A stretch of 9,713 bases of DNA from NCBI GenBank assembly GCA_021790615.1, contig JAJYGW010000075.1, positions 1-9,713 on the forward strand. The letters run 5' to 3'. Of this stretch, positions 6,907 through 9,303 are shown in pieces. The stretch's first letter is position 1; the number at the start of each line of letters is the position of its first letter. A model generated the notes under the pieces. The model saw nothing but the letters and a program-made list of their open reading frames with translations, ran no database searches and was not told the DNA's origin. The position numbers and the translations under genes were made by a program. This DNA is from Actinomycetes bacterium. GTDB taxonomy: Bacteria; Actinomycetota; Acidimicrobiia; Acidimicrobiales; JAKAOS01.

Positions 6907-7521
6907 ATGGCGGAGATCACGCTGACTGCGAGCGCGCGGCGACGGGTTGGCTCGAGCGTTGCCCGGCGGCTGCGGGTCGCGGGGAAGGTCCCCGGCGTCC
7001 TCTACGGGCACGGTATCGACCCGGTTGCGTTGAGTGTCGACGCGCGTGAGCTCCGTCACGTCCTCTCCTCGAAGGCCGGCGCGAACGTTCTGGTCTCCCT
7101 GGACCTCGACGGCCAGAGCTACCTCGCGATCCCCAAGGCGGTCCAGCGCAACGCGCTGCGCCAGGAGATCGACCATGTGGACTTCCAGATCGTCCGGCGG
7201 GACGAGCGCATGTCGGTAGAGGTACCGCTGGTCCTCACGGGCGAGGCCGAAGCGGTGCGCCTGGCGGGTGGCGCCGTCGAGCAGTCGATCTTCGCGATCC
7301 ACGTGATGGCCGCAGTGGACGCCATCCCCTCGTCGATCCCCGTCGACGTGAGCGGCCTCGCGGTCGGGGGCTCCATCCGAGTCGGCGATCTCCCGCTCCC
7401 CCCGGGCGTCGAGCCGGAGGGGGATGCGGAGCTGACGATCCTCGTCGCACACGGCCCAGCGGCGGAAGAGGAGGCGGCCGAGACGGGGGACGCCCCAGCC
7501 GACGGCTCGGGCGAGGGCTAG
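6907..7521 (+). CDS. rplY: Large-subunit ribosomal protein bL25, long Ctc/TL5 form
   Basis: bL25 binds 5S rRNA in the central protuberance of the 50S subunit. The long form has a second beta-rich domain and is known as TL5 or, in Bacillus, the general stress protein Ctc. The protein has 204 residues. The N-terminal 5S-binding domain (about 1-93) shows RRLRVAGKVPGVLYG (20-34) and ends in DHVDFQIV (89-96). The C-terminal domain (about 97-182) includes VPLVLTGEAEAVRLAGG and SSIPVDVSGLAVGGSIRVGDL. The last 22 residues are an acidic Ala/Glu/Gly tail. The start is fixed by the purine-rich ribosome-binding site. The gene lies between prs and pth, as in Bacillus. The TAG stop is in the same frame as pth, which follows immediately. 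Confidence 0.95.
   Translation: MAEITLTASARRRVGSSVARRLRVAGKVPGVLYGHGIDPVALSVDARELRHVLSSKAGANVLVSLDLDGQSYLAIPKAVQRNALRQEIDHVDFQIVRRDERMSVEVPLVLTGEAEAVRLAGGAVEQSIFAIHVMAAVDAIPSSIPVDVSGLAVGGSIRVGDLPLPPGVEPEGDAELTILVAHGPAAEEEAAETGDAPADGSGEG
7513..7517 (+). promoter_or_regulatory. Shine-Dalgarno supporting a CTG start for pth
   Basis: GAGGG within the last rplY codons lies exactly 7 bases before an in-frame CTG at 7525. The next candidate, GGGAG at 7543-7547, lies 10 bases before a CTG at 7558. No other initiation codon exists in this stretch of the frame, so these sites decide the start. Confidence 0.45.
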
Positions 7522-7524
7522 CCG

Positions 7525-8124
7525 CTGCCGCGTCCTCGCACCGGGAGCTCGGCGGACCTGCTCGCCGTCGGGCTCGGAAACCCCGGTTCGGAGTACGAGC
7601 AGACCCGCCACAACCTTGGTGCGGCGACCGTCGACCTCCTCGCCCGTCGGCACGGCGCCCCGCTCCGACGCTCGCGAGCGCTGAGCGCGCTCGCGAGCGA
7701 GGCGACCGTCGACGGCCACTCCCTCGCCCTTGCCTTTCCGCAGACGTTCATGAACGACTCGGGTCGGGCGGTCCGGGCGCTCATCCGGCGCTACGGCATC
7801 CTCGAGCTTGCCCGGTTGGTCGTCGTCCACGACGAGCTCGACCTGCCCGTTGGCACGGTGCGGGTGAAGCTCGGCGGTGGGACCGCCGGCCACAACGGGC
7901 TCCGGTCCATCGAGGCGCACGTCGGAGGGGCCGGTTTCGCACGCGTGCGCATCGGGATCGGTCACCCACCGGGCCGTGGCGACGGCGCACGCTACGTCCT
8001 GAGCGCGCCGCGTGGCACGGAGCGCGAGGCCCTCGCTGTCTCGGTCGAGGAGGCGGCAGACGCCGTCGAGCTGGTCCTCCGGCACGGGGTCGACGCGGCG
8101 ATGAACGCCGTCAACGGCCGCTGA
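7525..8124 (+). CDS. pth: Peptidyl-tRNA hydrolase with non-canonical start
   Basis: Pth cleaves the ester bond of peptidyl-tRNAs released by stalled ribosomes, recycling tRNA. The Pth fold signature is complete. Counting from the CTG at 7558, the active-site residues are Asn 8 in VGLGNPG, His 18 in TRHNLG, Asn 66 in TFMNDSG, Asp 92 in HDELDLP and Asn 113 in AGHNGL, matching E. coli Asn10, His20, Asn68, Asp93 and Asn114. Between the rplY TAG (7519-7521) and GLGNPG the frame contains no ATG, GTG or TTG. The only candidates are CTG 7525 (199 residues, GAGGG 7 bases upstream) and CTG 7558 (188 residues, N-terminus MLAVGLGNPG as in many homologues). The first canonical start, ATG 7750, would delete the Asn and His of the active site. 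Coupling to, or read-through from, rplY is possible. The function is near certain, the start uncertain. Confidence 0.9.
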   Translation: MPRPRTGSSADLLAVGLGNPGSEYEQTRHNLGAATVDLLARRHGAPLRRSRALSALASEATVDGHSLALAFPQTFMNDSGRAVRALIRRYGILELARLVVVHDELDLPVGTVRVKLGGGTAGHNGLRSIEAHVGGAGFARVRIGIGHPPGRGDGARYVLSAPRGTEREALAVSVEEAADAVELVLRHGVDAAMNAVNGR

Positions 8125-8247: not shown

Positions 8248-9303
8248 GTGCGGATCCTCGCAGACTGTGACACCGGGATCGACGACGCACTCGCGCTCGC
8301 CTACCTCGCGAGCCGTGCGGGGGCGGAGCTGGTCGGAGTCGGGAGCGTGCACGGGAACGTCGCTGCGGAGCAGGCAGCGGACAACTCCCTCGAGGTCCTC
8401 GAACGCTGTGGGCTCGGGACCGTGCCCGTCGCCGTCGGCGCCCGGCGCCCGCTCGTCGGGGATGCGCGCTTCGCCGAGGAGTGGCACGGTCGCGACGGTC
8501 TCGGAGACGTGGCGCGCCCCGGGCCCCGGGGCCTCCCGACCGAGGAGCCGGCAGCGGTCCAGCTCGTTCGCCGGGCGCGAGAGGCTGCCTTCCAGGGAGA
8601 GCCGCTCACGCTGCTCGCAACCGGGCCCTGCACGAACCTGGCGCTTGCGCTGCTGCTCGAGCCCGAGCTCACCAGCTGGGTTGATCGGGTGGTGGTCATG
8701 GGTGGCGCGCTACGCGTGCCGGGCAACGTCGGTCTGCTGTCCGAGGCGAACATCGCCGCGGATCCCGAGGCGGCGGCGATCGTGGTGAGCGCACCCTGGC
8801 GGGTGGTGCTCGTCAGCCTCGACGTGACCATGCAGGCGATCCTGGAGCACGAAGCCGTCGAGCGGCTCGCTCGCGCCGGTGGACTTCCCGCCTGGTGCGC
8901 AGCAGTCACGCAGCTCTACCTGGACCGCTACCAGGCCGTGCTCGGCCGCCGGGCCTGCCCACTTCACGACCCGCTGGCCGCAGCCGTCGCATGCGCGCCG
9001 GAGATCGTCCGTCTGGAGACGCTGCCGGTGGTGGTCGAGCTCCGCGGCGAGTGGACTCGGGGCGCGACCGTCGCCGATCATCGACGGGGAGCAGATCCGG
9101 CCACTGGCGGGCATGTCCGAGCGGGGCCGAACGAGGCCACCGAGCCCCTTGCGTCCGGATCGGAGCTCTCCCCCGTGGGGGTCGTGGAGGCGGCCGTCGA
9201 CGTCGACGGCCCCGCCTTCGTCGAGCACTTCGTCTCGCTCCTTCTCGAACCCGAAGCGGGCTCAGCGAGGTTGGCGGGGGAAGCGGGCGGCGAGCGGCGC
9301 TAG
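8248..9303 (+). CDS. Inosine/uridine-preferring-type nucleoside hydrolase
   Basis: The enzyme hydrolyses the N-glycosidic bond of ribonucleosides to base and ribose; the base preference cannot be read from sequence. Ca2+-site motif DCDTGIDD occupies 6-13. Next come TGPCTNLALAL, MGGALRVPGN from 151, EANIAADPEAA (166-176), and CPLHDPLAAA with the catalytic-type His 240 and Asp 241. At 351 residues it is longer than the usual 310-330. The excess is a Gly/Pro/Glu/Ser-rich stretch at about 282-311, before the last strand and helix (VDVDGPAFVEHF). The GTG start at 8248 lies 6 bases after a TAGGGT box and has no Shine-Dalgarno, which fits a leaderless mRNA. It sits between pth and mfd, which are usually closer neighbours, and is probably a monocistronic salvage gene. 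Confidence 0.92.
   Translation: MRILADCDTGIDDALALAYLASRAGAELVGVGSVHGNVAAEQAADNSLEVLERCGLGTVPVAVGARRPLVGDARFAEEWHGRDGLGDVARPGPRGLPTEEPAAVQLVRRAREAAFQGEPLTLLATGPCTNLALALLLEPELTSWVDRVVVMGGALRVPGNVGLLSEANIAADPEAAAIVVSAPWRVVLVSLDVTMQAILEHEAVERLARAGGLPAWCAAVTQLYLDRYQAVLGRRACPLHDPLAAAVACAPEIVRLETLPVVVELRGEWTRGATVADHRRGADPATGGHVRAGPNEATEPLASGSELSPVGVVEAAVDVDGPAFVEHFVSLLLEPEAGSARLAGEAGGERR

Follow-up and report, generated by a model that had tools for sequence, protein, structure and literature searches.

Among described bacterial genes, infC of E. coli is one of the close parallels to the locus reported here. It encodes IF3 and has an AUU start, and as with pth, a translation-related gene carries a weak, non-canonical start codon that is thought to limit expression. 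The two differ in that pth has CUG in place of AUU and that Pth is no initiation factor, and autocontrol is hypothetical for pth. A second parallel lies in the rare annotated CUG starts of bacteria, where the codon is the same and initiation presumably proceeds through the same mismatched fMet-tRNA. Bacteria rarely keep CTG starts, and CUG is treated as negligible. CUG opens 20 annotated ORFs in 69 genomes, or 0.024% of annotated ORFs (PMC9845219), changes to CUG number 4 among about 68,900 reconstructed starts (2/61,358, 1/5,080 and 1/2,468; PMC5622118), start codons selected in a mycobacterium showed no enrichment of CTG (0.03%; PMC4633059), and E. coli CUG complexes are less stable (PMC11497404). 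Those annotated starts are scattered, whereas the orthologues of a single gene keep CUG within a clade here. A third parallel is provided by the ATGA and GTGA overlaps of termination-reinitiation, since CTG overlaps the rplY TGA in 23 of the CTG-only loci described below; the overlapping codon is nevertheless CTG, and in the locus we analyzed the stop and the CTG stand three bases apart. Among the titles and abstract openings of open-licence PMC articles we found no report of CUG or CTG starts for pth or in Acidimicrobiia, and no precedent for a single gene that retains CUG as its start throughout a clade. The pth gene, which encodes the housekeeping enzyme peptidyl-tRNA hydrolase, appears from genome comparison to start in just this way in this bacterium and in many of its uncultured relatives.

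The window, by which we mean the whole stretch of DNA analyzed, is a contig of 9,713 nt with 72% GC. Its forward strand carries ksgA, ispE, hemH, glmU, prs, rplY and pth, followed by a gene for a probable nucleoside hydrolase and by the beginning of mfd; the names rplY and pth are backed by profile models, and the other names come from reading the translations. The probable nucleoside hydrolase, between pth and mfd, occupies 8248-9303. The pth frame scores 187 bits against TIGR00447, above the curated cut-off of 100, and aligns with 36 distinct PDB sequences of Pth or the related CRS2; HDELDLP and GGTAGHNG stretches lie together with GLGNPG and TRHN in this one frame, all aligned with solved Pth chains. 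Judged by model and structure alignment, the product is an ordinary bacterial Pth and a predicted hydrolase. The gene, which is held to be essential, gave one match in 10 of 12 genomes searched and two adjoining pieces in the other 2. At L015 and L018 (genomes G010 and G011) the Pth match is split into residues 1-80 and 85-188, as from a mid-gene insertion.

An initial annotation of this DNA had described a pth frame closed upstream by the rplY TAG, with only two CTG codons able to open it before the first motif, and these coordinates hold (Table 1). The TAG is in frame, the 16 codons between it and GLGNPG include CTG 7525 and CTG 7558 as their sole NTG codons, and ATT, ATC and ATA are likewise absent from this part of the frame. 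The GAGGG said to lie seven bases before the first CTG is indeed there, with a duplex energy of -6.1 at that spacing. The first canonical codon follows both GLGNPG and TRHN, whose Asn and His we take to be the residues regarded as catalytic in Pth; a start there would thus remove two active-site residues, as had been noted. The reading that we consider highly probable, on comparative grounds, is that pth is translated from CTG 7525.

Table 1. Features of the rplY-pth region, in window positions
Feature	Position	Strand	Remark
rplY (bL25)	6907..7521	+	ATG start; TAG stop 7519-7521 in frame with pth
GAGGG, Shine-Dalgarno-like	7513..7517	+	within rplY 3' end; 7 nt before CTG 7525
pth as proposed	7525..8124	+	199 codons from CTG, then TGA
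CTG, proposed pth start codon	7525..7527	+	comparison with relatives and homologue start positions
RTGSSADL, N-terminal segment common to homologues	7537..7560	+	upstream of GLGNPG
Second CTG, rival start	7558..7560	+	four codons before GLGNPG
GLGNPG to TRHN	7570..7614	+	GLGNPG 7570-7587; TRHN 7603-7614
First ATG/GTG/TTG of pth frame	7750..7752	+	start here would remove both Asn and His motifs

The position of the start can be read from homologous proteins. A set of 5.8 billion proteins was searched twice. From each search the best 120 of about 8000 scored matches were listed, which together make up 217 different homologues, and a GLGNPG-like motif lies near the N-terminus in 210 of these 217 listed. 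Of the listed homologues, 54 have their first residue exactly four positions ahead of an R[TS]G-like motif, which is the distance found for CTG 7525; this first letter is M in 39, L in 9 and V in 6, and an initial V probably reflects a GTG, and an initial L a TTG or CTG, translated at face value. P0003 is one example, with MLRPRTGTAADLL to be set against (CTG)PRPRTGSSADLL in the window. At the DNA level, the canonical loci L169, L194 and L195 read TAG CCG GTG CTG CGG where the window reads TAG CCG CTG CCG CGT. Because the start distances of homologues match and these three loci have GTG at the same place, CTG 7525 lies at a start site that relatives use; what speaks against this site is that further homologues begin at different points, 44 of the 217 listed doing so ten residues ahead of the motif. 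The refuting observation named in the initial annotation, a canonical start in relatives at this place, was made in part: some do have ATG, GTG or TTG there, which tells where the start of pth lies, while the locus nearest in the tree has CTG. A start at CTG 7558, the only other NTG before the motif, would keep both GLGNPG and TRHN. It would, however, omit the RTGxxAD segment common to homologues and leave an N-terminus shorter than in Pth proteins known from other bacteria, and we regard it as very unlikely.

The codon itself was surveyed in a start region running from the rplY stop, with a one-base overlap allowed, to five codons before GLG. Of the 171 rows, one is the window, 30 belong to the G004 family (in which 34 of 35 genomes matched), 128 were taken from a class list (375 of 395 genomes matched; the loci come from near the top among the matches listed, with some rows passed over) and 12 are among the 80 loci of another search. 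Five of those 80 (L001, L004, L006, L008 and L010) were dropped before the count, four repeating genomes already counted and L008, which has ATG, closely resembling L009. Among these 171 Acidimicrobiia-type pth genes, 127 have ATG, GTG or TTG (126, and one without a located rplY), 38 have CTG only (the window and 37 other loci) and 6 have neither, shares that are valid for the higher-scoring set examined and not for the class Acidimicrobiia. Two entries, L003 and P0045, are titled Acidobacteriota and Sphingomicrobium yet carry an Acidimicrobiia-type pth, perhaps because of wrong labels or mixed bins. In 23 of the CTG-only loci the CTG overlaps the rplY TGA as CTGA, and in the other 15 it lies downstream, 3 to 16 nt from the stop's first base. 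A further CTG is present in the region in 12 of the 23 CTGA loci and absent in 11, and in those 12 more than one CTG is a candidate for the start. The 18 non-overlapping loci without a canonical start, a set that excludes L136, L167 and L232, were shuffled on condition that neither a canonical start nor a stop arose. CTG occurs in 15 of the 18 where 4.25 would be expected, and in 13 it falls among the first four codons where 1.45 would be expected, figures that overstate the independent evidence because the 18 loci are kin. The missing canonical start together with the CTG goes beyond chance, since the pattern recurs in 37 other loci and the CTG stands at the homologue start position.

Loci with neither kind of codon bear on whether some other codon, such as ATC or ACG, or entry from another frame, might serve in place of CTG. 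The 6 of 171 in this group count against a CTG start. Three of them (L136, L167 and L232) have an in-frame ATG inside rplY, and the others (L096 of genome G030, L233 and L005) have no CTG or canonical start in or near the region and no in-frame ATG, GTG or TTG inside rplY; L115 and L085 also carry an in-frame ATC. Set against this, the window has none of the ATH codons before the motif, and by eye no other codon recurs where CTG does among the rows compared; we regard such a start as very unlikely. Outside the surveyed set, 63 further loci from the search that gave 80, mostly of other classes or phyla by title, gave 61 canonical starts and 2 unscored cases, and a phylum-wide draw of 56 loci gave 45 canonical, 3 without a canonical start and 8 unscored; these two counts did not take the rplY stop as the limit of the region, and unscored loci are those whose motif missed the pattern. 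One of the three, L282, is a clean case with an in-frame TAG followed by CTG GCC GAC nine codons before GLG, and L304 and L316 are less clear.

A first tree was built from Pth (GLGNPG onward) and bL25, and a second under a mixture model on 75 rows. In the first the window groups with L111 and L120, both of which have CTG. CTG clusters on the tree, requiring 13 changes on the first against a shuffled mean of 34.8, and 12 on the second against 25.4. One clade of 54 rows, with a support of 93 in the first tree and 95 in the second, holds 35 CTG, 18 canonical and 1 neither; parsimony places CTG at the base of 53 of these 54 rows, with canonical starts arising later inside, and the remaining CTG loci (L131, L247 and L257) fall outside. 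As the backbone forks have supports of 81-95 and some smaller forks are weak, the number of CTG origins is not fixed. The start position, its CTG and the recurrence of that codon in a clade are supported by comparison among relatives.

Use of CTG does not extend to the surrounding genes that were scored. Neighbors of pth were anchored in 20 CTG-pth genomes and the window, in this one neighborhood and under a lenient rule that accepted any start up to 60 codons upstream, and all 89 had a canonical start (KsgA 5, IspE 5, HemH 1, GlmU 18, Prs 19, RplY 21 and Mfd 20, one Mfd row being skipped); Pth lacks one in all 21, which follows from the way these genomes were chosen. These anchored genes were used in place of a control over all ORFs, which was noisy in that shadow ORFs and conserved upstream DNA were counted; it gave 16 of 197 genes without a canonical start in CTG genomes, 10 of them pth, and 13 of 249 in canonical genomes, none pth. 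One other gene deserves mention, a MazG-like ORF on the reverse strand of L208 (from 15093 in reverse-complement coordinates), in which the only NTG before the conserved part is CTG; the orthologues found in other loci have a canonical codon at that place in 21 of 21. No support emerged for a relaxed initiator tRNA, M1-like with an altered GGG/CCC stem of tRNAfMet; the standard initiator anticodon stem GGGCTCATAACCC was found in 30 of 37 CTG-type genomes, and the other 7 and the extra genome G030 gave no match. Since neighbors are canonical and the standard stem is present in 30 of the 37, CTG is not a general start codon among the genes examined.

Signals at the rplY-pth junction depend on its type. 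Shine-Dalgarno-like pairing, scored 4-9 nt upstream of the start against shifted controls, averaged -5.38 before the 15 non-overlapping CTGs (controls -3.03), -3.68 in the 23 CTGA loci (-3.84), where enrichment is thus absent, and -3.18 in 102 canonical loci (-2.75). The signal is therefore clear for the junction type of the window and absent for the overlapping type, the latter counting against a CTG start. The phase of the junction bears on a bL25-Pth fusion, supplied by read-through of the rplY TAG or, in relatives, by a frameshift at the rplY stop; TAG read-through was among the options listed in the initial annotation. In the window the TAG is in frame and the frame is open through to pth, and in 27 of 32 G004-family loci a C stands before the rplY TGA while pth occupies the -1-shift frame. 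That C says little, because among the 170 loci with a located rplY stop it is also frequent before TGA in the other two phases (13 of 17 and 7 of 9, beside 49 of 55 in the 2-mod-3 phase); GTGA occurs in the same phase as CTGA in 6 canonical loci. The gap from the rplY stop to GLG is 2 mod 3 in 28 of 32 G004-family loci, canonical ones included, with 12 lengths from 62 to 140 nt. Frame conservation as an argument within the CTGA group is weaker than it looks, for membership itself forces this phase. Against a fusion stand the 15 non-overlapping CTG loci, where the gap is divisible by 3 in 12, leaves 2 in L111 and L257 and leaves 1 in L120, so that no one mechanism of read-through or -1 shift can serve all; read-through cannot explain the out-of-frame rplY stops of these three and of the 23 CTGA loci. 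The rplY stops themselves vary between TAG, TGA and TAA, and a fusion leaves both the CTG near the stop and its match to homologous start positions unexplained. We regard this option as very unlikely.

The initial annotation had also predicted that automatic annotation would truncate pth, and this is confirmed for the nearest locus. L111 (70% identity to the window) has no canonical start farther upstream in the region examined, and protein P0044 (MGLGNPG...) is its gene read from the GTG directly before GLGNPG, differing only in the first letter. Among the 210 listed homologues with a GLGNPG-like motif, 29 begin no more than 3 residues from GLG and look cut short. The closest protein among the matches listed, P0001, is 150 aa long, covers 69% of the query at 94% identity and has its first residue within the gene, as would be expected if a canonical start were missing, although a contig end is an alternative. 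Finally, if the CTG were an error of sequencing or assembly, a single-base change to GTG, ATG or TTG would restore an ordinary start, but the same feature in many independent assemblies, namely the 37 other CTG loci without a canonical start (L111, the nearest in the tree, among them), and the internal start of P0001, subject to that alternative, make this reading very unlikely.

Initiation at CTG 7525, possibly coupled to rplY termination, is thus the best supported of the four options first put forward, relatives sharing the CTG and the CTG itself standing at the homologous start position. Ribosomes finishing bL25 would terminate at the TAG, and the GAGGG would hold or recruit a 30S subunit such that CUG 7525 comes to lie in the P site. 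There fMet-tRNA would initiate despite a mismatch at the first codon position, and the product would begin fMet-PRPRTGSSADLLAVGLGNPG. Use of the Shine-Dalgarno-like element and coupling to rplY termination are what we infer from the arrangement. A weak CUG start would hold Pth below the level of the ribosomal protein on the same mRNA, and its purpose may be attenuation, with an enzyme needed in few copies sharing its message with a ribosomal protein. The lower stability of CUG complexes in E. coli and the lack of CTG enrichment in the mycobacterial selection agree with a start of low output, and they are also the main ground for doubt. More tentatively, and with the balance of probability against it, selection may have kept CUG as the pth start across the Acidimicrobiia clade as a built-in valve, low-gain or self-regulating, by which the dosage of Pth is set against that of bL25 on one mRNA.

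For genomes of this kind, gene finders can cut the catalytic N-terminus off Pth. The presence of CTG, GTG, TTG and ATG orthologues in one context offers a natural series for testing the purpose of start-codon strength, and if CUG does act as a valve, the output of Pth would track how stringently start codons are selected. If the CTG start is true, a clade that keeps CUG on a presumed essential gene would mean that initiation at CUG can persist stably through long periods of evolution.
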